56,841 bases of DNA from a virus, in IMG/VR virus record IMGVR_UViG_3300023116_000057, positions 1 through 56,841 of that record; one strand, 5' to 3'. Below, piece by piece: positions 11,597-56,841 of the stretch (within the stretch, counting starts at the first letter, position 1; every line of letters begins with the position of its first letter). The notes below the pieces were generated by a model, which ran no database searches, had not been told where the DNA came from, and saw nothing but the letters and a program-made list of their open reading frames with translations. Position numbers and translations under genes: made by a program.

Positions 11597-12008
11597 GGGG
11601 TTGCAAAGGTTTCGATTGTTTATGTGGATTCTAAAATGCACGTTGAGGTTCTAGGTGGCCTCATTAAAAACCTAGAAAACAATAAATGGCAAAACTTATG
11701 ATGCAAATCAAGTTTGGGATTTTAGTAACATTTTTGTAAACGATTGTGTTTTCCCAAGTATGAGCCAAGAAGTCGTCTTACAAGCATAAGACGCACCTCA
11801 AAATAATATCCTTTGATGTTTTGAGGTAATCTAAAAGGATAGTTGACAATTATTCTCTTTTGAATTGTCAATGAAGTTACAAAAGAGCGATTTCTAATCA
11901 AACCTTGTCTGTAAGGGAATTAGAAATTGTATTCAAATGTACAGAATAAGCGTGTAGAGTTTTTGATGATATATAGATAAGACGTGGGTTCGATTCCCAC
12001 CAACTCCA
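11597..12008 (+). ncRNA. ssrA: tmRNA (transfer-messenger RNA)
   Basis: Rescues stalled ribosomes and tags the nascent chain. The 5' end GGGGTTG pairs with CAACTCC at the 3' end, including the G3-U wobble typical of alanine identity. The T arm is GTGGGTTCGATTCCCAC; CCA is not encoded. Four pseudoknots can be drawn: PK1 (GAGG/CCTC with CTAGGT/ACCTAG), PK2 (ACCTCAAAA/TTTTGAGGT with ATCCTTT/AAAGGAT), PK3 (TTGACAATT/AATTGTCAA with CTCTTTTG/CAAAAGAG) and PK4 (ATTTCTAAT/ATTAGAAAT with CTGTA/TACAG). A helix-5 hairpin GTCTTA/TAAGAC carries the tag stop. It has its own promoter. Such a complete tmRNA in a phage is uncommon. Confidence 0.93.
11688..11789 (+). other. Likely tmRNA tag reading frame (33 codons)
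   Basis: The frame that reaches the TAA inside the helix-5 hairpin, the usual tag stop position, runs from about GGC at 11688, twelve bases after the last PK1 stem. It encodes about 33 residues: it opens GKTYDANQVW, includes VNDCVFPSMSQ and ends VVLQA. A neighbouring frame from GCA at 11689 gives a 16-codon tag that stops at TAA 11737-11739, far from helix 5. The long frame is preferred for stop position and the C-terminal alanine. Most bacterial tags are 8-12 residues and mycoplasma tags are under 30. Confidence 0.5.
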
Positions 12009-12056
12009 TATTTTCAAACAAAGAAAAATATTTTGAAAAAAAAACAAAAATAGTTC

Positions 12057-33160: not shown

Positions 33161-34723
33161 ATGACAGTACGTTATAAAAACAAATCGGAATTGTACAAAG
33201 AATTGCTGCAAGGTTCGGAACTTCTATCTGAAAATGTCGGATCAACTCTTGGACCAAGAGGACACACAGTGCTTATTGGAGAGAAGGGAAAGAGACCAAT
33301 TATTACAAAAGATGGCGTCACAGTTGCACAGTTTGTAAAGTCTGACAATCCATTTGAACAACTTGCAATTGACGTTATCAAACAATCTTCAGTTCAAACA
33401 AACGTCGAGGCCGGAGATGGGACAACTACTTCTACAATTATTGCAAATGCGATTTTCAAAAAATCACAAAAATACTTGGCAACAGGGGTTCACCCTTTTG
33501 TTCTTAAAAAACAATTTGAAGACGCACTGAAAAAAGCACTCGAAGAGGTTGAAAAAATCTCTTCTCACGTCGATTCTGCGAACGATATAGAGAGCATTGC
33601 ATATATCTCATCCAATGGAGATAGAATCGCCTCTAGAATCATTCGGGAGGCTGTTGAAAGCGCAGGTCAAGATGGAGCAATCACCATCGATGAGTCACAT
33701 TCTAAGGTAACTAAACTTGATGTTGTAGAAGGCTTCTCGTTCCGTTCTGGATTGTTCAATCAGGCTTTTGTGACAGATGAAAAAAGAGGAGTTGCTAAAC
33801 TAGACAATCCTTTTTTGTTGGTTACAGATAAAAAAATATCAAGTTTGGACGAAATCATGGGTGTTTTAGAGATTGCTGCAAGAGCAAACAGACCCTTGGT
33901 TATGATTGCCGAAGACTTTGAAGGAGAAGCGTTTGGTGCATGTATGTTGAACCAAACGCAAGGAAACATTAAGATCTGTTTGATAAAGGCTCCAAACTAC
34001 GGAGAGGAAAGAAGGAATGTGTTGGAAGATTTAGCAATTTCTTCGGGTGCTAAATTTTTTCGAAGAAGCAATTCGGACGATATATCCAAGGCTGACTTAA
34101 GTTCGTTAGGGACTGCAAAATATTTAGAGAGCAACAAATTTGCGACTATTATTGTTGATTTGAAAGGCGATTTGGACAAAGTCAATCAAAGGATTGATTT
34201 GTTAAAGGAAGAAATGAAGGAAATCGAAAGCCACGAAGAATGTAAAAAAATACAAGAAAGGATTGCTAGGCTTGCCTCGACAGTTGCAATTATAAAGATT
34301 GGTGCTGATACTGAAATCGAAATGATAGAAAAGAGGCATCGTTACGAAGATGCCCTAGAAGCGGTAGTGGCAGCGCAAGACAAAGGTTATGTCCCAGGTG
34401 GAGGTGTCACTCTTTTGAGAATCTCCAACAAGTTGAGAAAAAATAAATTACCTGGGTTTCAAGTTTTTTGCGAAGCCATTGAAGAACCTTTCCGAATTTT
34501 GTGTAAAAATTCGGGAGAAAACTTTCATTCTTTAAAACAAAAAATACTCAGAAAAAAAGATTTCTTTTATGGCTATGATTTTAATAAGCAAAAATATGGC
34601 AATATGGTAGAACTCGGTGTTATAGACCCAACAAAAGTTACAATTGGGGCGATAAAAAATGCTACAAGTTCTGCTTCTACTTTGCTCACAACATCTTATT
34701 CAATCGTTACAGAAGAGGATTAA
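33161..34723 (+). CDS. groEL: GroEL-type chaperonin (520 aa)
   Basis: Folds proteins in an ATP-driven double ring. Conserved motifs include TLGPRGHTVLI (about residues 29-39), ITKDGVTVA, the nucleotide site GDGTTT (85-90), RYEDALEAVVAAQDKG and VPGGGVTLL. Compared with E. coli GroEL (548 aa) the C-terminal GGM tail is missing, and the end is TTSYSIVTEED. The segment after GGGVTL is shorter and diverged. It is a full-length group I-like chaperonin, probably serving a large capsid or replication protein. A GroES-like gene lies at 23141-23410. Confidence 0.94.
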   Translation: MTVRYKNKSELYKELLQGSELLSENVGSTLGPRGHTVLIGEKGKRPIITKDGVTVAQFVKSDNPFEQLAIDVIKQSSVQTNVEAGDGTTTSTIIANAIFKKSQKYLATGVHPFVLKKQFEDALKKALEEVEKISSHVDSANDIESIAYISSNGDRIASRIIREAVESAGQDGAITIDESHSKVTKLDVVEGFSFRSGLFNQAFVTDEKRGVAKLDNPFLLVTDKKISSLDEIMGVLEIAARANRPLVMIAEDFEGEAFGACMLNQTQGNIKICLIKAPNYGEERRNVLEDLAISSGAKFFRRSNSDDISKADLSSLGTAKYLESNKFATIIVDLKGDLDKVNQRIDLLKEEMKEIESHEECKKIQERIARLASTVAIIKIGADTEIEMIEKRHRYEDALEAVVAAQDKGYVPGGGVTLLRISNKLRKNKLPGFQVFCEAIEEPFRILCKNSGENFHSLKQKILRKKDFFYGYDFNKQKYGNMVELGVIDPTKVTIGAIKNATSSASTLLTTSYSIVTEED

Positions 34724-47595: not shown

Positions 47596-47624
47596 TTGAC
47601 ATTCTAAGCCAGATTCACTATCTT
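47596..47624 (+). promoter_or_regulatory. Promoter of leader-cassette type
   Basis: TTGACA at 47596-47601, 17 nt, TATCTT at 47619-47624. Nine bases later the leader hairpin begins. Confidence 0.8.
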
Positions 47625-47633
47625 CAAAACATC

Positions 47634-47649
47634 GAGGTAATGATGCCTC
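47634..47649 (+). promoter_or_regulatory. 5' leader stem-loop
   Basis: GAGGT-AATGAT-GCCTC: five pairs with a closing U-G, six-base loop. It starts near the expected +1. A CCTCC-CA-GGAGG palindrome covers the ribosome-binding site downstream. Confidence 0.65.
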
Positions 47650-47672
47650 CCACAACCTCCCAGGAGGAAAAA

Positions 47673-48131
47673 ATGTCAAAATCTTTCTTCGAAGACGCTC
47701 AAACCATCAAATTTTTCCAACCCCACGTTGACGAGTACAACAAACAGATTGAATCTCTTGTAGAAAGACTAAATCACACGAAAACTCACGATTTGAGAAA
47801 CCATGTACAATGGTTCTTGGACAACCCATCCTCAGTCGAGTTTATCGTTGGTTGCCTCTACAAACAAAAAGGAGGTAGACGCAGAAACCAAATCCCAGCC
47901 AAGAAATTTCCAAAAAACCAAGATTGGAACCTCTCTCGCGTTGTATGGGAACGAGCGCAGTGGCACAACATTATTCCAGGTGGAAGTGCTTCTCTGTGGG
48001 GTCCAATGATGTCAATTGGTCGCATCCCAAAAGAAGACATGGACCGCATCGACACACTTTTCTGCGGTATCGCTGCAATGCATGGATTGTACACTGCAAC
48101 ACACCGATGGAAAGAAGCACTCGGAATGTAA
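47673..48131 (+). CDS. Unknown protein (152 aa)
   Basis: Helical N-terminus, a basic central segment (KQKGGRRRNQIPAKKFPKNQ) and a Trp-rich stretch (WERAQWHNIIPGGSASLWG). Clear GGAGG before ATG 47673. Own promoter with a leader hairpin. Function unknown. Confidence 0.7.
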   Translation: MSKSFFEDAQTIKFFQPHVDEYNKQIESLVERLNHTKTHDLRNHVQWFLDNPSSVEFIVGCLYKQKGGRRRNQIPAKKFPKNQDWNLSRVVWERAQWHNIIPGGSASLWGPMMSIGRIPKEDMDRIDTLFCGIAAMHGLYTATHRWKEALGM

Positions 48132-48148
48132 AAAAATAAAAAAAACAC

Positions 48149-48177
48149 TTGACAACCCAAAACACATTCGTTATCTT
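48149..48177 (+). promoter_or_regulatory. Promoter of leader-cassette type
   Basis: TTGACA at 48149-48154, 17 nt, TATCTT at 48172-48177. Leader nearly identical to the one at 47596. Confidence 0.8.
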
Positions 48178-48186
48178 CAAAACATC

Positions 48187-48202
48187 GAGGCAATGACGCC
48201 TC
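48187..48202 (+). promoter_or_regulatory. 5' leader stem-loop
   Basis: GAGGC-AATGAC-GCCTC, perfect five-base stem and six-base loop, nine bases after the -10 box. Confidence 0.7.
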
Positions 48203-48225
48203 CCACAACCTCCGAGGAGGAAAAA

Positions 48226-48552
48226 ATGGCTTATAAATGGGTAATAACAAAGGATGTCGTCGAGTGCGGAGAATGCGAGGGTGTCATGAACATGTACCCT
48301 CGCCTAAACGAAACCCTAGCAGACGTTGAAGTCTCTGCCAAGGGTGCAAGAATAATGTCAAAACTGTCGAATTCGCAATGGGAATATGTGCGATGGAAAG
48401 CATACTGCGGTGATGGTGAACTCATGTACGAGGGCAAGATGATTATGAGTCCTAGTGCAGACGGCTTCGAGCCATTAGATGACTTCTGTATGCCAAATGC
48501 AGGCGCAACAAGTCTAAAACTATGTGAAAAGGGAAAGTGGTCCTGGTTGTAA
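48226..48552 (+). CDS. Unknown protein (108 aa)
   Basis: Two Cys near the start (VECGECEG) and a beta-rich body (KAYCGDGELMYEGKMIMSPS). GGAGG before ATG 48226. Followed at once by a palindromic terminator-like hairpin. Confidence 0.7.
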   Translation: MAYKWVITKDVVECGECEGVMNMYPRLNETLADVEVSAKGARIMSKLSNSQWEYVRWKAYCGDGELMYEGKMIMSPSADGFEPLDDFCMPNAGATSLKLCEKGKWSWL

Positions 48553-48572
48553 AAATTGAACGGTTCAATTTT
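48552..48572 (+). terminator. Terminator-like palindrome
   Basis: AAAATTGAAC-G-GTTCAATTTT directly after the stop. The core TTGAACGGTTCAA recurs at 48997, so a protein operator is an alternative. Confidence 0.55.
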
Positions 48573-48595
48573 AAGGGGCGTGGGCGCTATGCGAC

Positions 48596-48616
48596 GTAGA
48601 ATAGACTACCTGTATT
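48596..48616 (+). promoter_or_regulatory. Conserved 21-nt upstream element
   Basis: Starts GTAGAATAGACTACC and ends TGTATT; an identical copy lies at 49050-49070. It contains TAGAAT, a possible -10, and a GTAG/CTAC dyad. No TTGACA is suitably placed. Confidence 0.5.
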
Positions 48617-48657
48617 CAAGTGGCGTCAACAACAACTCGAAACAAGAGGTGAGAGCG

Positions 48658-48990
48658 ATGAAAAATTATGTTTCTTCAAAAGGACTCAAGTTCAACAAAA
48701 AACACATTGTGAACCCTTCAGATTATGACCCCAGTGGGACTTGGACAAAGGCATTTTTGCTTCACAATGAATTTGGAACAATTTGTGTTGTCTTTGCGAG
48801 TCATCTGCAAGATGCGCTGGAGATTGCGGTTGATGAGGAAAGGTTTGAATGTCAACGCATCGAAGAGTGCTCTAAGGAGGAGGAGGAATACTACACCCGG
48901 TTGGGGAATTACGGGGATCTCTATGACCTGACTTATGTCGGGTTTGATGTCGTGGATACTCCATTCACAGCAGCGTCGAAACCTTGCTAG
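48658..48990 (+). CDS. Unknown protein (110 aa)
   Basis: Beta-strand-rich (KAFLLHNEFGTICVVFASHL), then an acidic helical part and many Tyr residues. ATG 48658 with GAGGTGA is preferred to the long ORF from 48556, which begins inside the upstream palindrome. Function unknown. Confidence 0.65.
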   Translation: MKNYVSSKGLKFNKKHIVNPSDYDPSGTWTKAFLLHNEFGTICVVFASHLQDALEIAVDEERFECQRIEECSKEEEEYYTRLGNYGDLYDLTYVGFDVVDTPFTAASKPC

Positions 48991-48996
48991 TCTCGC

Positions 48997-49032
48997 TTGA
49001 ACGGTTCAAGAAATTGAACCGTTCAATTTTTT
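48997..49032 (+). terminator. Rho-independent terminator built from TTGAACGGTTCAA arms
   Basis: TTGAACGGTTCAA, loop GAAA, TTGAACCGTTCAA, then six T. Each arm is itself nearly palindromic. Confidence 0.9.
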
Positions 49033-49049
49033 GTGCTTCGGGTGGTCTT

Positions 49050-49070
49050 GTAGAATAGACTACCTGTATT
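49050..49070 (+). promoter_or_regulatory. Conserved 21-nt upstream element, second copy
   Basis: Identical to 48596-48616. It precedes the gene at 49114 by 43 bases. Confidence 0.5.
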
Positions 49071-49113
49071 GAGAGAGCGTAACGACAAACTTCAAAACAC
49101 GGAGAACAAGACA

Positions 49114-49404
49114 ATGATTTTCTCAAAGCCTGTGCCTTTTTCTGGAACTGCAACTTGTTCAGCGCATCTCAAGATCGGGATTTCTCCGGCTGGGACTCGC
49201 TATAACGTCTTTACCGAAGACAAAGAACCCGACGAGGTTCGCATGTACGTTGATGCTTACACGGCAAAACTTCATCGCCTTTGGTCCTCTCACTATGAAA
49301 GATGCTTTTCTCTGGAAAAGAAAGCGAGAAGAGAATCAGCGATGAACCAAGAAATTATCAAAAGTATCAGCGAGTACATTGATAATTTCTCGTCGATTGC
49401 TTGA
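49114..49404 (+). CDS. Unknown protein (96 aa)
   Basis: ATG 49114 with GGAG. N-terminal beta part (SGTATCSAHLKIGISPAGTR), C-terminal helix. No family recognised. Confidence 0.65.
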   Translation: MIFSKPVPFSGTATCSAHLKIGISPAGTRYNVFTEDKEPDEVRMYVDAYTAKLHRLWSSHYERCFSLEKKARRESAMNQEIIKSISEYIDNFSSIA

Positions 49405-49434
49405 AAGTGTGAAAAATAGGAAATAGGAGGTAGT

Positions 49435-49683
49435 ATGTTCGGAATGAAAGATGTGACAGCGTCCCAGTCTCTAGCCGACATTCTGAGGCACTATAAAGCC
49501 ATTGGCAATATACAGGGCAGAGAGAGGCTTCTTTCTCGAACTCTAGACTCGCTGAGGTTTGATTATGGGATGAATTATCCCACAATCTTTGCGATGGCCC
49601 AGCGACTGTCTCCCGGTCTGACCATTGCAGATTGGGAAAACTTAATGATGGAGTTTGAAGATTGGGAGTCGGAATCACGCTAA
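49435..49683 (+). CDS. Unknown small protein (82 aa)
   Basis: Helical, with an acidic C-terminus (MEFEDWESE). AGGAGG before the ATG. No family recognised. Confidence 0.65.
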   Translation: MFGMKDVTASQSLADILRHYKAIGNIQGRERLLSRTLDSLRFDYGMNYPTIFAMAQRLSPGLTIADWENLMMEFEDWESESR

Positions 49684-49704
49684 CAAAACACGGAGAACAA
49701 AACA

Positions 49705-50166
49705 ATGAAAGAAAAACAAAAAATCACTCGCTTCTGTCAAGAACAACTTGATAAATGGAATCTCAGTCAAGAAGGTTGGACACTCAAGTGGAACAAACGA
49801 CGAAAGTCTTGGGGTCTCTGCTGCTATCGAACAAAAACTATTCAACTCTCTGAAAGGTTTTTGTGTCACGGAGAGCAACTGTACGATACGGTTCTCCACG
49901 AAATTGCACATGCTCTCGCTGGACAAAGAGCAGGACATGGACCAATTTGGAAAAGATACGCAAGACAAGTTGGAGCAAACCCATCTAGGACAAAGTCAGC
50001 AAAAAGAACCAAAAAGTTTATGAAAAACATGGACTACAAATATCAATATTCCTGTAATGGGTGCGATAACACCGGAGGATTCTCCAGGCTCACAAACAAA
50101 TGGACTGAAGAAAGAGTCATCTGCACGAAATGTGGCTCTCGCGTTTCTTATCGACAGAGGCGATAA
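49705..50166 (+). CDS. SprT-like zinc metalloprotease (153 aa)
   Basis: The active-site motif is HEIAHALAG (H65, E66, H69) with a third His in AGHGPIW (H78). The C-terminal zinc ribbon has CNGC and CTKC. The domain order matches SprT/Spartan proteases, which act on DNA-crosslinked or DNA-bound proteins. It is short but complete in motifs. GGAG ribosome-binding site upstream. Confidence 0.85.
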   Translation: MKEKQKITRFCQEQLDKWNLSQEGWTLKWNKRRKSWGLCCYRTKTIQLSERFLCHGEQLYDTVLHEIAHALAGQRAGHGPIWKRYARQVGANPSRTKSAKRTKKFMKNMDYKYQYSCNGCDNTGGFSRLTNKWTEERVICTKCGSRVSYRQRR

Positions 50167-50180
50167 GGGACCAAACAGGC

Positions 50181-50246
50181 ATTCTAAGAGCGTTTTGTCT
50201 TGCGCGAGTATCAAGACAAGGCTCAAAGACAAAACGCTCTTAGAAT
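50181..50246. repeat. Long inverted repeat (21-nt arms)
   Basis: Arms 50181-50201 and 50226-50246 are perfectly complementary; within the 24-nt loop, GTCTT/AAGAC can form a competing inner stem. It follows the protease gene; a run of T lies 14 or more bases later, so a simple intrinsic terminator is not certain. Confidence 0.75.
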
Positions 50247-50271
50247 TGCTCTAAATTTGTTATTTTTTTTC

Positions 50272-50300
50272 TTGACATTTTGAAATGAACTTGTTACCTT
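50272..50300 (+). promoter_or_regulatory. Sigma70-type promoter
   Basis: TTGACA at 50272-50277, 17 nt, TACCTT at 50295-50300. The leader has no conserved stem-loop. Confidence 0.75.
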
Positions 50301-50328
50301 GGATTCTCAAGGAAAAAAGGAGTAAGCA

Positions 50329-50535
50329 ATGAAAAAAACAAACGTAGCAATTTTCGAAATCTTTGTTGGACTAGCCATCGGGCTAGTTCTAGCAATCATC
50401 ACACAACTATGCTGGAATAGCAGCATCGCTCCATTAATCGGAGCAAAAAGTTGCAGTTTCTGGCAAGCCTTCGGCATGAATGTCTTCGGCTCAATCGTTT
50501 TCAAAGACACCGTTACTCTCAAAAAGGAATCCTAA
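50329..50535 (+). CDS. Small membrane protein (68 aa)
   Basis: One long N-terminal hydrophobic segment (VAIFEIFVGLAIGLVLAIIT) and a second weaker one near the C-terminus. AAGGAG ribosome-binding site. No family assigned. Confidence 0.65.
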   Translation: MKKTNVAIFEIFVGLAIGLVLAIITQLCWNSSIAPLIGAKSCSFWQAFGMNVFGSIVFKDTVTLKKES

Positions 50536-50536
50536 G

Positions 50537-50803
50537 ATGAAAAAATTGCTAGAAGCAATACGAGAAGACCAACTGGTGGGAATAGGAAGTTGCTCGTCCA
50601 TCTCAGAAGCATATACAGACGAGGAAATCCTGGAATGCTTGGAAGAAAAAAACATCACAACAAAAAATGGTGCGCTGAAATGGGCGCACGATACCGAAGA
50701 ACTGTTTTTGTCATGCCTCACAACCAATTTTGACCTCTACGATGAATCCACGGTCAAGACTTTTTTTGAAGCAAGAAAAAAATATAACTACGAAGAGGAG
50801 TAA
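50537..50803 (+). CDS. Unknown acidic helical protein (88 aa)
   Basis: Helical and acidic (YTDEEILECLEEKNIT). ATG 50537 has AAGGA upstream; the longer ORF from 50480 overlaps the membrane gene and is not used. Confidence 0.65.
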   Translation: MKKLLEAIREDQLVGIGSCSSISEAYTDEEILECLEEKNITTKNGALKWAHDTEELFLSCLTTNFDLYDESTVKTFFEARKKYNYEEE

Positions 50804-50806
50804 ACA

Positions 50807-51169
50807 ATGAGCATCAAAAATCTGGAAATCAGAGAGTCCGAAATGTGTCATATCAACCAAATTGACCACAAATGGCAAAATAGAATGGAATTCCTTCTAT
50901 ACCCAGATGACATAAAATGGGAGTTCGCTGGACATGACCTCGGAGACATTGTCATCGAAAGACTTGCACACCTGCTGTTCGAAAATCCTACAAAATCTTG
51001 GTACTCAAACCACCCAGCGCAAACCGAAAAATTTCGCCAATCCTTCCTTGAGCAGTTCGAAGAAGCACTCTCCAAGTGTACACTACTAGATGATGACTTC
51101 TTCAATAAGAAAAAAAATCTCTCCCTCTTCCTAACCTTCACACCAAGACTTCAAAACCTAAGCTACTAA
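50807..51169 (+). CDS. Unknown protein (120 aa)
   Basis: Mixed helical sequence with HINQIDHKWQNRMEF and a conserved-looking AGHDLGDIVIERLAHL segment. GAGGAG ribosome-binding site. Last gene before the promoter at 51216. Confidence 0.65.
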   Translation: MSIKNLEIRESEMCHINQIDHKWQNRMEFLLYPDDIKWEFAGHDLGDIVIERLAHLLFENPTKSWYSNHPAQTEKFRQSFLEQFEEALSKCTLLDDDFFNKKKNLSLFLTFTPRLQNLSY

Positions 51170-51215
51170 AAACATTGAAGAATAACAATTCCCTCCAAAA
51201 AAAAGAAAAAAACAC

Positions 51216-51244
51216 TTGACTCCGCGCCACACAATGTGTACCTT
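51216..51244 (+). promoter_or_regulatory. Sigma70-type promoter
   Basis: TTGACT at 51216-51221, 17 nt, TACCTT at 51239-51244. The leader is unstructured. Confidence 0.75.
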
Positions 51245-51286
51245 CATAACAAGGCAACAACAACCCACAAACAAAAGGTGAAAACA

Positions 51287-51511
51287 ATGAAGTTTGCAAT
51301 CCTCTACGTTCCACACGATACCGAAGAAGAACCCTGCATCTGCGGTATCTTCAAAAATTGGAGAGCAGCACATGATACGCTCCTCTCCAAAGGATACACA
51401 AACATCGTAAAGCAATCTGGTGAATTCTATACCTCACCAGACCCCAACGAAGATGGCCTCTACACCACAACCAGCATTCCAACAGAAGAAAATATCTTCG
51501 ACCCCATTTAA
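51287..51511 (+). CDS. Unknown small protein (74 aa)
   Basis: Beta-rich start (KFAILYVPHDTEEEPCICG). ATG 51287 with AAAGGTG. Acidic; no family recognised. Confidence 0.65.
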   Translation: MKFAILYVPHDTEEEPCICGIFKNWRAAHDTLLSKGYTNIVKQSGEFYTSPDPNEDGLYTTTSIPTEENIFDPI

Positions 51512-51565
51512 GTTACCAAAAATCACAAGACAACAAAAAAAAAGAAAAAAACACAGGAGAACAAT

Positions 51566-51877
51566 ATGTACAACACATACTATGTCGGACCTTACCTCAC
51601 ATTCAAACACGCCAACAAAGAATGCTACGGCAATTCATACATCGTCGGCATAGCATACGCATTCGACGCATATGGACTCATCGGACCAGAACATAACGGC
51701 ATTTTCGTACTCGACGATACACACAAAGAAGTCGTACTCGACAGACACTCAGAATCAACAACATTCAGAAATGAACCAACTACAACACAACTCGACGAAT
51801 TTAAACGCATCATGAAAATGAATCAAGACGAATTCATCATCTTCATCCAGCAAAACCCACGCTCCAGACTTATGTGA
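51566..51877 (+). CDS. Unknown protein (103 aa)
   Basis: Aromatic N-terminus (YNTYYVGPYLTFKHANKECY), then a helical part. AGGAG before the ATG. The following 210-nt gap holds only a small hairpin (GGGGGT/ACCCC near 51956-51972) and the next promoter. Confidence 0.65.
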   Translation: MYNTYYVGPYLTFKHANKECYGNSYIVGIAYAFDAYGLIGPEHNGIFVLDDTHKEVVLDRHSESTTFRNEPTTTQLDEFKRIMKMNQDEFIIFIQQNPRSRLM

Positions 51878-52008
51878 TAAAATGTTCACAACGCCAAACA
51901 AATAATAAATGAAAAAAAAGAAAAAGTTTTTTCATGGCGTTTCTGTAATTGTTGTGGGGGTTTAAGACCCCTACACACACAAAAGTTACAGAAAATTGAA
52001 AAAAAGTC

Positions 52009-52037
52009 TTGACAAGATGCCCCAGGTCGGTTATATT
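52009..52037 (+). promoter_or_regulatory. Promoter of leader-cassette type
   Basis: TTGACA at 52009-52014, 17 nt, TATATT at 52032-52037. The spacer (AGATGCCCCAGGTCGGT) is nearly shared with the promoter at 52564. Confidence 0.8.
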
Positions 52038-52047
52038 CAAAACATCG

Positions 52048-52063
52048 GAGGCAATAACGCCTC
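52048..52063 (+). promoter_or_regulatory. 5' leader stem-loop
   Basis: GAGGC-AATAAC-GCCTC, perfect stem, six-base loop. Confidence 0.7.
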
Positions 52064-52070
52064 TCAAAAA

Positions 52071-52090
52071 CGTCACAGGAGTTTGTGATG
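52071..52090 (+). promoter_or_regulatory. Start-codon hairpin
   Basis: CGTCAC pairs with GTGATG (one G-U pair); the loop AGGAGTTT exposes the Shine-Dalgarno and the stem includes the ATG of the next gene. Confidence 0.6.
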
Positions 52091-52321
52091 ACTAAGAAAG
52101 AAATGGTTCGACAGTTCGTTCAAAAACAATTCAACAATAATCTGACTTTCGTTACAACCGATGAGGTCAGGCTCAACGTTCCCAGTGTCGCAAAATGGAA
52201 GGATTATCAGATTAAAAAATGCGTACTCCAGGCTGGGGGTTGGCCGAGTGGAAAAGTCATCCTCAGTGTGAAAAACGAGGCTCAGAAAACTCGCGAAAAG
52301 TGGCATTACAAGCGCAGATAA
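52088..52321 (+). CDS. Unknown protein (77 aa)
   Basis: Helical start (MTKKEMVRQFVQKQFNNNLT), basic C-terminus. ATG 52088 lies in the start hairpin. No family recognised. Confidence 0.65.
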   Translation: MTKKEMVRQFVQKQFNNNLTFVTTDEVRLNVPSVAKWKDYQIKKCVLQAGGWPSGKVILSVKNEAQKTREKWHYKRR

Positions 52322-52341
52322 GGCGAGTTGACATCTCACCA

Positions 52342-52425
52342 GTCTCTGTGGTGGAACTGGCAGACACGACAGACTTAAAATCTGTTGCCCTAAAAGGCGT
52401 GAGGGTTCGAATCCCTCCAGAGACA
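52342..52425 (+). tRNA. tRNA-Leu (anticodon TAA)
   Basis: Acceptor GTCTCTG/CAGAGAC, anticodon stem ACAGA/TCTGT with loop CTTAAAA, a class II variable arm, and T arm GAGGGTTCGAATCCCTC. CCA is not encoded. It reads UUA codons, common in this AT-rich genome. Confidence 0.95.
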
Positions 52426-52563
52426 TTCCAAACTTTCTACACGTTGAGCAGTTTTGAGACAAAAAGCAAAGCTCAACGTTTTCAACGACTTAGTTAAACC
52501 TTCTCTATAAGAGAACAACAAGCAGCAGGTTCCAACTTTTTTCACGCAGAGCGACAAAAAGTC

Positions 52564-52592
52564 TTGACAAGATGCTCCAGGTCTGTTATCTT
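52564..52592 (+). promoter_or_regulatory. Promoter of leader-cassette type
   Basis: TTGACA at 52564-52569, 17 nt, TATCTT at 52587-52592. Confidence 0.8.
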
Positions 52593-52602
52593 CAAGGCAT
52601 CG

Positions 52603-52618
52603 GAGGCAATAACGCCTC
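52603..52618 (+). promoter_or_regulatory. 5' leader stem-loop
   Basis: GAGGC-AATAAC-GCCTC, perfect stem, six-base loop. Confidence 0.7.
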
Positions 52619-52625
52619 TCAAAAA

Positions 52626-52645
52626 CATCACAGGAGTTTGTGATG
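52626..52645 (+). promoter_or_regulatory. Start-codon hairpin
   Basis: CATCAC / GTGATG perfect six-base stem, loop AGGAGTTT. Confidence 0.65.
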
Positions 52646-52852
52646 CACTACACATTTGTTAGAGAATTCATTGATACAAACCCAAACCTACTCTCCAAAG
52701 TCATCCGTCTTGTCGAAGACGGAGATTTTGAAGAGTTTGACCGACTCATATTCCACAGACTCTTTTTTGAGGGAGTCTTGAGTGCTGCGTTGTCCCAAAG
52801 TTTGTTCGAACAATACCAATACGAAATTAAAGAAGGTATATTGCCAACATAG
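52643..52852 (+). CDS. Unknown small protein (69 aa)
   Basis: Helical, acidic (RLVEDGDFEEFDRLIFHRLF). Start ATG 52643 in the hairpin. No family recognised. The tRNA-Met gene follows 13 bases later. Confidence 0.65.
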   Translation: MHYTFVREFIDTNPNLLSKVIRLVEDGDFEEFDRLIFHRLFFEGVLSAALSQSLFEQYQYEIKEGILPT

Positions 52853-52864
52853 TCTCAGAAAATC

Positions 52865-52938
52865 GGACCCGTAGTTCAGATGGTTAGAACTCCCGGCTCA
52901 TAACCGGGTGGTCCTCGGTTCGAATCCGAGCGGGTCCA
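52865..52938 (+). tRNA. tRNA-Met (anticodon CAT)
   Basis: Acceptor GGACCCG/CGGGTCC, anticodon loop CTCATAA, T arm CTCGGTTCGAATCCGAG. The G1-C72 pair indicates an elongator rather than an initiator; a tRNA-Ile2 with modified CAT remains possible. CCA is not encoded. Confidence 0.95.
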
Positions 52939-52944
52939 CAAAAC

Positions 52945-52991
52945 GCTCCCCTTTGCTGGTAAACTCCTAAAAAAACAAAGCAAAGGGGAGC
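52945..52991 (+). terminator. Hairpin after tRNA-Met
   Basis: GCTCCCCTTTGCT pairs with AGCAAAGGGGAGC over 13 bp; the following run is AATTTCTCTC, so termination or tRNA processing are both possible. Confidence 0.6.
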
Positions 52992-53006
52992 AATTTCTCT
53001 CTCAAC

Positions 53007-53160
53007 ATTCCAAACTTTCTACACGACAAGCGATTTTCCTCCAAAAAGCAAAGCTCAATATTTTCAACGACTTAGATAGACCCTTCCCATAAGAGAACAA
53101 TAAGCAGCAGGTTTCAACTTTTTTCACGCGGAGTGAAAAAAAGTGTTGACAAGACACCCC
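53007..53160. repeat. tRNA-linked promoter repeat, copy 2
   Basis: Related to 52427-52600: shared CCAAACTTTCTACACG, AAAGCAAAGCTCAA, TTTTCAACGACTTAG and AAGCAGCAGGTT segments in the same order. Confidence 0.7.
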
Positions 53161-53174
53161 AGTTTGATTATTGT
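53146..53174 (+). promoter_or_regulatory. Promoter of leader-cassette type
   Basis: TTGACA at 53146-53151, 17 nt, TATTGT at 53169-53174. Confidence 0.75.
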
Positions 53175-53183
53175 TGAATTCAC

Positions 53184-53199
53184 GGAGCAATGACGCTCC
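53184..53199 (+). promoter_or_regulatory. 5' leader stem-loop
   Basis: GGAGC-AATGAC-GCTCC: same shape as the others with a different stem sequence. Confidence 0.7.
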
Positions 53200-53218
53200 C
53201 AAATGAAAGGAAAAAACG

Positions 53219-53425
53219 ATGAGACAACGAAAACTGAACAGGACAAGCCTGGGCTGGGCCGTCCACAACCTGATCGCACACCCTCTATCTGAGATGTTGT
53301 GGGTGTGCGCGTTCGTCCTGGAGGCACTCTGTCTGCCGAATCTAGCAGACAGAACCGAGGATCTGGGCCATTGGGTCCACGACGTTACTGTACCTGAACA
53401 CGAGCCAGGCACAGGAAGAGGGTGA
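53219..53425 (+). CDS. Unknown small protein (68 aa)
   Basis: Contains GWAVHNLIAHPLSEMLW, a motif I recall from small phage proteins of unknown role, with a hydrophobic centre. AAAGGA ribosome-binding site. Higher GC than most of the window. Confidence 0.7.
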   Translation: MRQRKLNRTSLGWAVHNLIAHPLSEMLWVCAFVLEALCLPNLADRTEDLGHWVHDVTVPEHEPGTGRG

Positions 53426-53430
53426 CGACG

Positions 53431-53505
53431 ATGACATGGTTCTACTTTTGGGAGTGGCTCTTCAGCCTCTTGGCAGCAGGTTTCAACTTTTTTCACGCGG
53501 AGTGA
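53431..53505 (+). CDS. Possible small membrane peptide (24 aa)
   Basis: MTWFYFWEWLFSLLAAGFNF start, ending FHAE. The ORF runs into the second copy of the 120-nt repeat. GAGGGTGA stands upstream. Possibly real, possibly chance. Confidence 0.4.
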   Translation: MTWFYFWEWLFSLLAAGFNFFHAE

Positions 53506-53514
53506 AAAAAAGTA

Positions 53515-53543
53515 TTGACAAGACACCCCAGTTTGATTATTGT
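53515..53543 (+). promoter_or_regulatory. Promoter of leader-cassette type
   Basis: TTGACA at 53515-53520, 17 nt, TATTGT at 53538-53543. Confidence 0.75.
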
Positions 53544-53552
53544 TGAATTCAC

Positions 53553-53568
53553 GGAGCAATGACGCTCC
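53553..53568 (+). promoter_or_regulatory. 5' leader stem-loop
   Basis: GGAGC-AATGAC-GCTCC, copy of the one at 53184. Confidence 0.7.
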
Positions 53569-53587
53569 CAAATGAAAGGAAAAAACG

Positions 53588-53782
53588 ATGAGCAAATGGT
53601 ATTTTGGGTACGTTGTTTGTCATGATGCGGAAATCATGACGTGGGATGTAAGCCTGAAGATGGCAGCGGAATACATTGAAAGTTCCGATTGGCATCTAAT
53701 CGATGATGGCAGCGAGGTCCACAAAGATGACCTTGATATTATGCCAATCGAAGAGTATGAAATGCTCTTTGGTCCAGGGTGA
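53588..53782 (+). CDS. Unknown small acidic protein (64 aa)
   Basis: Compact sequence (WYFGYVVCHDAEIMTWDVSL start region), acidic C-terminal half. Start and leader come from the duplicated promoter cassette, but the protein is unrelated to that of the first copy. Confidence 0.65.
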   Translation: MSKWYFGYVVCHDAEIMTWDVSLKMAAEYIESSDWHLIDDGSEVHKDDLDIMPIEEYEMLFGPG

Positions 53783-53853
53783 AAAGAGTAAAAAGAGGTC
53801 TCCACAGAGTTTCCAGGTACAAGTCCTAATCTTTCTTATAAAAAGGAATAAAA

Positions 53854-54009
53854 ATGAAGAAGTTAACAGGCATGATAGAGTCCCTTGTAACTGCAATGGA
53901 AACTTTTTTATTGGTCACTGTAACAACGTTGTTTGCGATTGGAATCGCAACTCCGTTCGGATTGCTTGTTTATGCCATATGGCGATATTTTATCGTTATT
54001 GTCTTGTAA
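53854..54009 (+). CDS. Small membrane protein (51 aa)
   Basis: One long hydrophobic region (FLLVTVTTLFAIGIATPFGL) and a second C-terminal segment (YFIVIVL). AAAAGGA ribosome-binding site. No family recognised. Confidence 0.65.
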   Translation: MKKLTGMIESLVTAMETFLLVTVTTLFAIGIATPFGLLVYAIWRYFIVIVL

Positions 54010-54034
54010 GGTGAAAAAAAAAGAAAAAAAAGTG

Positions 54035-54063
54035 TTGACAAGAGGCTCCAGGTTGATTATTGT
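54035..54063 (+). promoter_or_regulatory. Promoter of leader-cassette type
   Basis: TTGACA at 54035-54040, 17 nt, TATTGT at 54058-54063. Confidence 0.75.
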
Positions 54064-54072
54064 TGAATTCAC

Positions 54073-54088
54073 GGAGCAATGATGTTCC
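54073..54088 (+). promoter_or_regulatory. 5' leader stem-loop
   Basis: GGAGC-AATGAT-GTTCC: compared with 53184 the changed base keeps pairing as G-U. Confidence 0.65.
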
Positions 54089-54092
54089 CAAA

Positions 54093-54114
54093 CATCACAA
54101 AGGAGAAAGTGATG
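54093..54114 (+). promoter_or_regulatory. Start-codon hairpin
   Basis: CATCAC / GTGATG stem, loop AAAGGAGAAA; the ATG of the helicase is in the stem. Confidence 0.65.
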
Positions 54115-55599
54115 AAACCATCGAAATACCAGGAAGCAATCGCCAACGCCATCACCACCAACACAGGGAACCTGCAAGTCGGGGCCGTCGCAGGTTCCGG
54201 CAAGTCAACCACCTTGGCTCAAGTAGTTGCTCCCAGACTTTCCGGGACAACCTGTTTTCTGGCTTTTAACAAAGCCATCGCGACCGAATTGGGCAACAAA
54301 CTGCCCAAAGGAACAGAGGCGAAAACAATCCACTCACTCGCCTATGGTCCTGTGAGAAGGAGATACAAGCAAACAAAGGTGGAAGGGCGTAAATACGCCA
54401 CGATCGTGGGGGATTTTTTGGAGCATCTTCCAGGTGCATCTGCTTCTGTTGTCAATTTAATTGACAATGGAGCCGACTTGCGCTCCCCGTTGGTCAAGAT
54501 GATCGATTTGGTGAGAAATACTCTCACCAACCCAGAGGACGACAAAGCAGTGATTAATCTCGCAAATCACTACGATGTCGAAATGCCAACAGGGAGTCTG
54601 TTGGAGTATTTTTTCGTCGCTCTGAACAAAATCCTGGCTGCCGGTCGCGCAGAATCAAAATTCTGGCTGGATTTTACCGACATGTTGTGGCTTGCTGCCA
54701 CTGACCCAACAATCCAGCCCAAAAAATACGACTGGCTACTTATCGACGAGTGTCAAGACTTGTCAAAGGCGCAACTGGCTGTTGTCTCAAAGGCTCTTAA
54801 GCCAGGAGGTCGAGCAGTTTTTGCTGGGGATGCTCGACAAGCCATTAATGGCTTTGCCGGGGCCGATTGTGACAGTTTTATGAACATTCACAAAGAAATG
54901 GATACCACCATCCTGCCTCTGACCATTTGTTACCGCTGCGATGCCTCCATCATCCGGGAGGCTCAAAAGATTGTCCCGGAAATCGAGGCTCGCGAGGGCG
55001 CAGCAGAGGGAAGTGTCTCCAGCATTTCAGAGGAAAAATTCAGCCCTGTTGAGGGTGACATGGTTCTCTGCCGAACTAATGCTCCCCTCGTAAGCCTTTG
55101 TTTTCGCTTGATTTCAGAGGGCAAGCCTGCTCGAATCAAAGGTCGTGACATCGGCGCAGGTCTCATCTCAACAGCAAAAAAAATAACAAAAAAACGAGGG
55201 TTTGCTGCTTTGGGTTGGGAGAACTTTGGCGAGGCTGTTCAGCAATGGCTCCAAGCCGAGCGTGTTAAACTGGAAAAGAGAAAAGCCGACGAAGGTCGTT
55301 TTCAGGCTCTCTCCGACAGAGCAGAGTGCTTGACGGTCATCTGGTCGTCTTCGACAATAAACACGCTTAGGGACTTCGAGAAGACTGTTAAAGGCATTTT
55401 CTCTGATGACCGTCCCGGCATCCAACTGTCGAGTGTACACCGCTCCAAAGGTCTCGAAAACGAGCGTGTATACATTATCCGTCCTGAACTACTCCCCGGA
55501 CCCTGGGCAGAGGAAGGAACGTGGCAGTATGAGCAGGAAATCAACCTGAAATATGTCGCGATAACAAGAGCGAAACATGAACTCGTTTGGGTTCGCTAA
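54112..55599 (+). CDS. UvrD/Rep-like superfamily 1 helicase (495 aa)
   Basis: ATP-dependent DNA unwinding. Walker A is GAVAGSGKSTT (about residues 24-34), then TFLAFNKAIA-like motif Ia region, motif II LLIDECQDLSKAQ, FAGDARQAINGFAGAD (motif III), CYRCDASI (motif IV), and the C-terminal IQLSSVHRSKGLENERVYII and YVAITRAKHELVWV (motifs V and VI). At 495 aa it is smaller than UvrD (720 aa), lacking much of the 1B/2B insertions. GC content is clearly higher than in the left part, suggesting a different origin. It has its own promoter, leader and start hairpin. Confidence 0.9.
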   Translation: MKPSKYQEAIANAITTNTGNLQVGAVAGSGKSTTLAQVVAPRLSGTTCFLAFNKAIATELGNKLPKGTEAKTIHSLAYGPVRRRYKQTKVEGRKYATIVGDFLEHLPGASASVVNLIDNGADLRSPLVKMIDLVRNTLTNPEDDKAVINLANHYDVEMPTGSLLEYFFVALNKILAAGRAESKFWLDFTDMLWLAATDPTIQPKKYDWLLIDECQDLSKAQLAVVSKALKPGGRAVFAGDARQAINGFAGADCDSFMNIHKEMDTTILPLTICYRCDASIIREAQKIVPEIEAREGAAEGSVSSISEEKFSPVEGDMVLCRTNAPLVSLCFRLISEGKPARIKGRDIGAGLISTAKKITKKRGFAALGWENFGEAVQQWLQAERVKLEKRKADEGRFQALSDRAECLTVIWSSSTINTLRDFEKTVKGIFSDDRPGIQLSSVHRSKGLENERVYIIRPELLPGPWAEEGTWQYEQEINLKYVAITRAKHELVWVR

Positions 55600-55604
55600 C
55601 CTCC

Positions 55605-55760
55605 CTCCCAGCATCCTCCCAGCATCCTCCCACAATCCTCTCCAGAAAATCCTCTCCAGAAAATCCTCTCCAGAAAAACGAGCCTCCAGAAAATTGTCTC
55701 CAGAAAAACGAGCCTACAGAAAAACCTCCTCAGAAAAACGAGCCTCCAGAAAATTGTCTA
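55605..55760. repeat. Tandem repeat array (left)
   Basis: Degenerate repeats of CATCCTCCCAG, then TCTCCAGAAAATCC and CCAGAAAAACGAGCC, beginning just after the helicase stop. Homologous to the array at 56164-56280. Confidence 0.85.
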
Positions 55761-55808
55761 GCAAAATCAAGCTCTTGAAAGTTTTTTCTCCCCCAGGTGC
55801 ATTTTTTG

Positions 55809-55837
55809 TTGACAACCTCCGCTGGCTTTGATATGCT
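55809..55837 (+). promoter_or_regulatory. Promoter of leader-cassette type
   Basis: TTGACA at 55809-55814, 17 nt, TATGCT at 55832-55837. The sequence before it (TTTTTCTCCCCCAGGTGCAT) recurs before the promoter at 56335. Confidence 0.75.
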
Positions 55838-55845
55838 TTGAACTC

Positions 55846-55861
55846 GTCGCAATGTTGCGAC
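55846..55861 (+). promoter_or_regulatory. 5' leader stem-loop
   Basis: GTCGC-AATGTT-GCGAC: stem sequence completely different from the others but still five perfect pairs around a six-base AAU loop. Confidence 0.7.
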
Positions 55862-55866
55862 CCAAA

Positions 55867-55888
55867 CATCACAAAGGAGAACGTGATG
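55867..55888 (+). promoter_or_regulatory. Start-codon hairpin
   Basis: CATCAC / GTGATG stem, loop AAAGGAGAAC. Confidence 0.65.
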
Positions 55889-56161
55889 AAAAGAGGAACG
55901 CTTTACCTGCTTCATTTTTCCCGACCCCTCAGCCATGCCAAGCACTACCTTGGCTTTACCACACGAACACCCGAAGACCGTCTTCGAGAACACCTCGAAG
56001 GCAAAGGCTCACCACTGGTTAAGGCAGCGGTCGAGGCAGGAATCGACGTGACCATATCTCGCACCTGGCGAGATAAAACACGCTCCGACGAGCGTTCTCT
56101 GAAAAACCAAAAAAACGGCCCCAGGCTCTGCCCCTGCTGTAACCCTCGCCTTAAAGAGTAG
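55886..56161 (+). CDS. Small GIY-YIG domain protein (91 aa)
   Basis: The GIY-YIG core is visible: GTLYLLHFSRPLSHAKHYLG, then RLREHLEGKGSPLVKAAVEA, and TISRTWRDKTRSDERSLK, with CPCC near the end. It resembles the single-domain UvrC/YhbQ type rather than the homing endonuclease at 9810. Catalytic Arg is probably in RLREH. The gene lies between two homologous repeat arrays. Confidence 0.75.
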   Translation: MKRGTLYLLHFSRPLSHAKHYLGFTTRTPEDRLREHLEGKGSPLVKAAVEAGIDVTISRTWRDKTRSDERSLKNQKNGPRLCPCCNPRLKE

Positions 56162-56163
56162 CA

Positions 56164-56280
56164 CCCTCCCAGCATCCTCTCCAGAAAATCCACTCCAGAA
56201 AAACGAGCCTTCAGAAAATCCACTCCAGAAAAACGAGCCTTCAGAAAATCCACTCCAGAAAAACGAGCCTTCAGAAAATT
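56164..56280. repeat. Tandem repeat array (right), 30-nt units
   Basis: Three 30-nt units (56191-56220, 56221-56250, 56251-56280) starting CACTCCAGAAAAACGAGCC, the last differing by one base, preceded by a partial unit. Confidence 0.9.
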
Positions 56281-56334
56281 GTCTAACAAAATCAATGGCT
56301 TGCAAGTTTTTTTCTCCCCAGGTGCATTTTCTTC

Positions 56335-56363
56335 TTGACATTTTGGAGAAACGCCTTTAACTT
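56335..56363 (+). promoter_or_regulatory. Promoter of leader-cassette type
   Basis: TTGACA at 56335-56340, 17 nt, TAACTT at 56358-56363 (weak -10). Confidence 0.7.
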
Positions 56364-56371
56364 GGGTGTTC

Positions 56372-56389
56372 CGAGGTAATAACGCCTCG
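56372..56389 (+). promoter_or_regulatory. 5' leader stem-loop
   Basis: CGAGGT-AATAAC-GCCTCG: six pairs including one U-G, six-base loop. Confidence 0.7.
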
Positions 56390-56393
56390 CAAA

Positions 56394-56415
56394 CATCACA
56401 AAGGAGAACGTGATG
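56394..56415 (+). promoter_or_regulatory. Start-codon hairpin
   Basis: CATCAC / GTGATG stem, loop AAAGGAGAAC. Confidence 0.65.
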
Positions 56416-56644: not shown

Positions 56645-56713
56645 ATGCTCCTCTTCCTTCTTTGTCTAGCCTGCTTTGTTGGCAGGCTTGCCAGGTTAGA
56701 CGGTCAATTGTAA
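56645..56713 (+). CDS. Possible hydrophobic micropeptide (22 aa)
   Basis: MLLFLLCLACFVGRLARLDG start, one base after the preceding stop. It could be a lipoprotein-like or membrane peptide; the ORF ends at the edge of the terminal repeat. Confidence 0.35.
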   Translation: MLLFLLCLACFVGRLARLDGQL

Positions 56714-56841
56714 GCACACCTCACACCTCAGCAGAGCACACCTCACACCTCACACCTCAGCAGAGCACACCTCACACCTCACACCTCAGCAGAGCACACC
56801 TCACACCTCACACCTCAGCCGAGCACACCTCACACCTCACA
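56714..56841. repeat. 29-nt tandem repeat running off the window end
   Basis: Repeats of a unit starting GCAGAGCACACCTCACACC (29 nt), built from CACACCTCA sub-repeats; one copy has GCCGAG. The array is cut by the window edge. Confidence 0.9.

Follow-up and report, generated by a model that had tools for sequence, protein, structure and literature searches.

The 56,841 bases analyzed here (the window) are the entire linear virus record IMGVR_UViG_3300023116_000057, an uncultivated phage with a GC content of 35.9%; the record is probably a fragment of a larger phage genome. Its genes include those for a DnaE-type DNA polymerase, a DnaB helicase, a UvsX-like recombinase and GroEL, and it also encodes one transfer-messenger RNA (tmRNA) and two transfer RNAs (tRNAs). 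We were concerned with the right-hand region of the window, which is rich in small, mostly nameless genes, and in which nine promoters are each followed by a short hairpin that is predicted to stand at the 5' end of the transcript.

Promoters and 5' hairpins of the window

All nine promoters that had been claimed for this region lie at their positions (47.6-56.4 kb, + strand; Table 1). Each reads TTGACA-N17-TANNNT, with a spacer of 17 nucleotides (nt) and 9-11 of 12 consensus matches. Behind every one of them a stem of 5-6 base pairs (bp) with a hexaloop begins 8-9 nt past the -10 box, and the loops follow each other in the order AATGAT, AATGAC, AATAAC twice, AATGAC twice, AATGAT, AATGTT and AATAAC. 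AATRAY fits eight of the nine, AATGTT being the remaining one; AATGAT and AATGTT are able to close one extra A-U pair, leaving a tetraloop. Folding energies of the hairpin windows range from -6.7 to -9.5 kcal/mol compared to a local mean of -2.3, and the five promoters said to be without a hairpin (8392, 14582, 29657, 50272, 51216) indeed have none and fold at 0 kcal/mol.

Across the whole window GC-rich hairpins of this loop type occur only at these nine sites. The stems of eight other matches to the loop type are weak and made of AU/GU pairs; under a Markov null 4.7 such matches are obtained on average. If transcription is taken to start at the typical +1, 7 nt past the -10 box, all nine leaders folded from this predicted position begin with 2-3 unpaired bases, followed by the hairpin. 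A comparison with Rfam 15 gave no match at the elements at either gathering or relaxed thresholds; only tRNA and tmRNA reach threshold.

As the promoters are partly copied cassettes (sequence groups A to E in Table 1), the nine hairpins represent only about five independent stems: GAGGY/GCCTC, GGAGGC/GCCTCT, GGAGC/GYTCC, GTCGC/GCGAC and CGAGGT/GCCTCG. The cassettes at 53146 and 53515 are duplicated and near-identical over more than 80 bases. Identical AT-rich inverted repeats, AACTTTTTTCAC-GCGGA-GTGAAAAAAAGT, abut the -35 box of both on the upstream side (53115-53145 and 53484-53514), and inverted repeat and promoter together form a stem-loop/promoter cassette whose order is like that of the PeSL cassettes discussed below.

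Table 1. Positions of the promoters, of the hairpins and of the helicase gene served by the leader at 54035
Feature	Positions	Strand	Sequence	Remarks
Promoter	47596..47624	+	TTGACA-N17-TATCTT	group A
5' hairpin	47634..47649	+	GAGGT(AATGAT)GCCTC	
Second hairpin	47656..47667	+	CCUC(CCAG)GAGG	pairs Shine-Dalgarno; fold
Promoter	48149..48177	+	TTGACA-N17-TATCTT	group A
5' hairpin	48187..48202	+	GAGGC(AATGAC)GCCTC	
Second hairpin	48209..48220	+	CCUC(CGAG)GAGG	pairs Shine-Dalgarno; fold
Promoter	52009..52037	+	TTGACA-N17-TATATT	group B
5' hairpin	52047..52064	+	GGAGGC(AATAAC)GCCTCT	
Second hairpin	52071..52090	+	CGUCACAG(GAGU)UUGUGAUG	Shine-Dalgarno and start codon inside; fold
Promoter	52564..52592	+	TTGACA-N17-TATCTT	group B
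5' hairpin	52602..52619	+	GGAGGC(AATAAC)GCCTCT	
Second hairpin	52626..52645	+	CAUCACAG(GAGU)UUGUGAUG	fold
Promoter	53146..53174	+	TTGACA-N17-TATTGT	group C
5' hairpin	53184..53199	+	GGAGC(AATGAC)GCTCC	
Promoter	53515..53543	+	TTGACA-N17-TATTGT	group C, duplicated cassette of 53146
5' hairpin	53553..53568	+	GGAGC(AATGAC)GCTCC	
Promoter	54035..54063	+	TTGACA-N17-TATTGT	group C
5' hairpin	54073..54088	+	GGAGC(AATGAT)GTTCC	one G-U substitution
Second hairpin	54093..54114	+	CAUCAC(AAAGGAGAAA)GUGAUG	Shine-Dalgarno in loop, AUG in stem; fold
UvrD/PcrA-like helicase gene	54112..55599	+		Pfam UvrD-helicase 1.1e-17; phrog_1967 5e-97; served by 54035 leader
Promoter	55809..55837	+	TTGACA-N17-TATGCT	group D
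5' hairpin	55846..55861	+	GTCGC(AATGTT)GCGAC	
Second hairpin	55867..55888	+	CAUCAC(AAAGGAGAAC)GUGAUG	fold
Promoter	56335..56363	+	TTGACA-N17-TAACTT	group E
5' hairpin	56372..56389	+	CGAGGT(AATAAC)GCCTCG	
Second hairpin	56394..56415	+	CAUCAC(AAAGGAGAAC)GUGAUG	fold

Folding of the leaders further predicts a second hairpin which contains the Shine-Dalgarno sequence and/or the start codon in seven of the nine. The leaders of group A have an alternative: the GGAGG of their Shine-Dalgarno sequence could also pair with GCCTCC in the 3' arm of the 5' hairpin, so that a translational switch is possible. An in-frame ATG at 54079 lies within the loop of a 5' hairpin, upstream of the helicase start at 54112; it is probably unused because no Shine-Dalgarno sequence precedes it.

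Covariation, position and loop

The stems of the window had been reported to differ and still always to pair. We assessed this by direct pair counts on the seven distinct rows; a 16-nt hairpin is too information-poor for a reliable whole-genome search with a covariance model. Standard pairs make up 100% of the cells, compared to 83.7% after shuffling, and the covariation score is 0.686 compared to 0.287 for shuffled rows and 0.02-0.276 for slid structures. Two-sided changes occur at two of the five stem pairs, a count which alone is not above the shuffles, as 178 out of 500 reach two.

An independent family was obtained from 80 relatives of one small marine-phage protein, gathered by protein similarity and not by structure. 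Where a promoter lies upstream, many of its leaders carry a hairpin at a distance of 5-8 nt from the -10 box, and some members have none. The stems (AATCATC/GGTGATT, CTGCAC/GTGCAG, CTACAC/GTGTAG, TATCAC/GTGATA) enclose loops of 4-8 A-rich bases. In a subgroup of four sequences three of the six pairs are changed on both sides with 100% pairing, compared to 4-50% in slid controls; a second subgroup (alignment A3) holds G-U changes only and no two-sided change.

To describe the position of the hairpin we used 263 strong promoters that are followed by a Shine-Dalgarno sequence and an open frame, taken from 5 Mb of phage loci after removal of the sites used for selection. A hairpin starts 3-13 nt past the -10 box at 37 of them (14%), a rate that reflects phages picked for carrying one element. 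At control offsets of 20-30 nt and 31-41 nt downstream the numbers drop to 4 and 6 out of 263 (1.5-2.3%), and upstream hairpins occur at 4 promoters just before the -10 box and at 20 in the range of -60 to -50.

The role of the loop was addressed by surveys with fixed stems and a free loop. For stems of the form RGGGC/GCCCY an AAYNNY loop, for example AACAAC, AACTAC, AACACC, AATCCC, AATAAC or AATGAC, is present at 19 out of 48 unique sites compared to 0.75 expected, and for SYGGC/GCCRS stems in 8 out of 47 hexaloops. If the sites are clustered by promoter sequence and full pairing is required, AAYNNY is found in 7 of 24 and 7 of 39 clusters where about 0.4-0.6 would be expected (p ~6e-8 and ~2e-6, respectively, if all bases are taken as equally frequent). 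Stems closed by G-C have it in 1 of 46 clusters only. As the enrichment is confined to C-G-closed stems, the closing pair seems to be part of the motif. The original prediction of an AAURAY loop therefore captured one subset of the preferred loops; as an exact loop it is rejected by these surveys, the preference being the wider C-[AAYNNY]-G, mostly AAYNMY.

The loop can also drift over a kept stem, as seen in Aeromonas phage BUCT551 (GGGC-AATGAC-GCCC) and its close relative AhMtk13b (GGGC-AGTACC-GCCC). AACAAC, AATCCC and AAACCC occur within one phage, and other lineages have GATGGAC (four copies at the phage locus L604) or, in actinophages, ACAGG and AACGG. It is conceivable, if rather speculative, that C-AAYNNY-G (mostly AAYNMY, including AAURAY) might represent a distinct cap-like hexaloop class of phage mRNA 5' ends, recognized by a conserved host factor or unusually stable, which was adopted independently by phages of low- and high-GC hosts.

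Recurrence in other phages, and the wider window

A search of other phages had been suggested beforehand, and our pattern scans demonstrate that the arrangement of promoter, 5' hairpin, Shine-Dalgarno sequence and ATG recurs in unrelated phages. A loose pattern (TTGACA-N17-TANNNT-N11-16-CAATRAYG) was run against 2.9 million viral contigs and matched at least 120 stretches. Among the matches listed, 28 out of 111 distinct sites have stems of at least 5 bp, compared to 4 out of 92 for a permuted loop; the fractions alone are compared because the two scans may have covered different shares of the collection. The stems listed range from TATAGGC to GGGTCGGC, and the GC content of their contigs from 31 to 72%. 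A strict pattern with a GGC-AATRAY-GCC core occurs in 66 viral contigs compared to about one expected from base composition, assuming our estimate of ~60 Gb for the viral collection. Bacterial and archaeal genomes (257 Gb) contain it 23 times, where about 4 would be predicted. As judged by a loose criterion, the hairpin is followed within 70 nt by a Shine-Dalgarno-like stretch with a start codon at 49 of 52 distinct viral sites compared to 13 of 21 genome sites, and stems of at least 5 bp are present at 26 of 52 and 3 of 21, respectively.

The named carriers include BUCT551 and Actinoplanes phage phiAsp2. The element stands at 6 of 10 promoters in phiAsp2, with mostly unrelated stems, at 4 of 5 promoters in the examined part of Aeromonas phage A18P4, and at all 3 in the first 50 kb of BUCT551. 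Four promoters of L604 (5297-8559) share one stem with a heptaloop (GCGGC-GATGGAC-GCCGC), which represents a further class of loop within this architecture. Salmonella phage Chi, of the family of BUCT551, has no convincing element, and in Pelagibacter HTVC008M, Mosig and HTVC115P the homologous genes are present and the element was not found. We found no gene common to the carriers, many of which have a single copy in the stretch examined, and no description of a phage 5' hairpin with this loop in the open-access literature.

Searches brought up no near relative of the window phage. Megablast of window 36-56.8 kb against 50,697 named phage records returned no match, a search with the window helicase found no near relatives among viral contigs, and the best named matches are ~29% identical for the polymerase and ~40% for the helicase. 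The GroEL-like chaperonin is encoded at 33161-34723 and the tmRNA at 11597-12011; ARAGORN predicts an unusually long tag peptide of 33 residues for the latter. Long near-perfect inverted repeats (arms of ~15-22 bp), possibly terminators or small RNAs, lie in the intergenic stretches 50180-50255, 51935-51995 and 52940-53000. Tandem short repeats, of the CTCCAGAAAAT/ACGAGCC type and, at the end of the record, of CCTCACACCTCAGCAGAGCACA, occupy 55600-55760, 56160-56310 and 56710-56841.

Interpretation and known systems

Covariation in the window and in the marine family, recurrence and position support the view that an RNA hairpin close to the predicted start of the transcript is under selection. 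This part of the original prediction is thus supported, while the exact AAURAY loop proved too narrow. We propose, with a probability of roughly 55%, that the elements may be 5'-terminal protective stem-loops of the ompA/papA type, which many phages would have evolved anew. A strong sigma-70-like promoter of host type would start the RNA 2-3 bases ahead of the stem, so that the triphosphate end would be held beside a duplex. The host pyrophosphohydrolase RppH and the 5'-sensing nucleases (RNase E; RNase J in other hosts) favor an unpaired 5' end, and would thus act poorly and leave the short early mRNA longer-lived. The loop stays small and A/C-rich, with C-AAYNNY-G in one large class, and the Shine-Dalgarno sequence comes 10-25 bases after the hairpin, in this phage often within the second hairpin. 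The exact start site, the blocking of decay, and this blocking as the reason why the elements are retained are what we infer from the arrangement.

The fixed promoter distance, the free stem sequence, the short 5' overhang and the missing U-tract fit a protective stem-loop, and a 5' stabilizer is the best supported of the options named earlier. The attenuator among these options is unlikely, as a U-tract is missing and the gene's own Shine-Dalgarno sequence lies downstream of the hairpin. Transcripts protected by 5' stem-loops have been reported (PMC7509114). According to a review, conversion of the 5' end by RppH is hindered by a 5' hairpin, which stabilizes bla mRNA, and RppH of Bacillus subtilis requires at least two unpaired 5' bases (PMC3997798). 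Several points weigh against protection as the explanation. An overhang of 3 nt may leave room for some action of RppH, and the preference for C-AAYNNY-G exceeds what a passive end-cap would need. In an unselected sample, phage promoters do not clearly exceed those of bacteria in their share of such hairpins (2 of 41 compared to 4 of 106). Use by all phages is thus not supported, and the habit is lineage-specific and reused within certain phages.

The loop preference leads to the thought that the closing C-G pair and the A-rich hexaloop could form a binding site for a protein, either phage-coded or a conserved factor of the host, by which a set of early genes would be regulated in translation or stability. 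The loop is constrained in C-G-closed (7/24 and 7/39 clusters) and not in G-C-closed stems (1/46), and freely varying stems would match recognition of shape plus loop. A precedent is the gp43 operator of T4/RB69, a hairpin of 16-18 nt with UAAC in the loop (PMC3014915), a loop that is only partly alike. This operator belongs to one gene, lies ~40 bases upstream of the start, overlaps the ribosome site and is bound by T4 DNA polymerase, whereas the polymerase seen in the window, which is probably a fragment, is DnaE-type. Loops that change among close relatives over a constant stem, several loops within one phage, and single-copy carriers without a common gene also speak against a protein site, and we regard it as unlikely. 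A function in translation, either insulating the Shine-Dalgarno sequence from varying 5' sequence or tuning access to the start together with the second hairpin, could draw on the seven leaders with such a hairpin and on the group A arm that could pair with GGAGG. However, 53146, 53515 and most other phages keep the 5' hairpin without a second one, and its position tracks the promoter and not the start codon, which makes this explanation quite improbable.

While one must keep in mind that the hairpin lies within the first ~20 nt and is always coupled to a strong promoter, an early pause, an anti-backtracking or a put-like antitermination element is still more doubtful. There is no U-tract, stem and loop vary too much from host to host, and the element is smaller than the lambdoid put RNA, which has ~70 nt and two hairpins. 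It is hardly to be expected that the element is a palindrome in DNA to which a repressor binds, or that it arose as a by-product when promoter cassettes were copied. Duplication is plain for some of the nine (53146/53515), but a single repressor would not accept half-sites as unrelated as GAGGC, GGAGC and GTCGC, compensatory and G-U changes indicate RNA, and the architecture is common to unrelated phages whose sequences are not identical.

Among known phage systems, actinophages of clusters K, EF and EG have Start Associated Sequences and start-linked inverted repeats, which are short, present in many copies and located before the starts of small non-structural genes; those of cluster K are not in the host genome (PMC3203893, PMC7302621). 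They have a fixed sequence placed by the start codon or ribosome site, whereas the window elements have a free stem placed by the promoter. The fixed 13-bp sequence of cluster K at the ribosome site was accordingly rejected as an identity for our elements, since the stems differ and the position tracks the promoter. PeSL cassettes of T4-like phages likewise couple a phage promoter to a stem-loop and are duplicated and shuffled; a paper of 2014, cited in PMC4503421, names their stem-loop as a terminator in its title. In contrast, the stem-loops of the window lie downstream of the promoter and are transcribed. An intrinsic terminator or PeSL was rejected, as the 3' arm is followed by CCACAA, CAAAAA or CAAATG and not by a U-run; a terminator scan of the + strand found none at the nine sites. 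The phi10 leader of T7 also has a 5'-terminal hairpin at +1, with a small A/C loop (the pentaloop ACAAC) before a strong ribosome site, but it belongs to a T7 RNA polymerase promoter and to one lineage.

The elements resemble ompA, papA and the engineered bla of Escherichia coli in having a hairpin a few bases from the 5' end and before an independent Shine-Dalgarno sequence, where any stem sequence is workable in principle. In agreement with this, the stem begins 2-3 nt from the predicted +1 in all nine leaders, and in the window, the marine family and phiAsp2 it is the structure rather than the stem sequence that is conserved. They differ in their reuse at many promoters and in unrelated phages and in the preferred C-AAYNNY-G hexaloop, and protection would here be assumed by analogy. 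Protective 5' hairpins are already known, so far from few mRNAs; what appears to be new is their repeated promoter-coupled use in many phage lineages, together with a loop rule that is testable. If the elements do protect the phage mRNAs, 5'-end decay by the host would be a pressure that phages meet in cis and without a protein, and the elements could be used as ready-made stabilizing leaders for laboratory expression.

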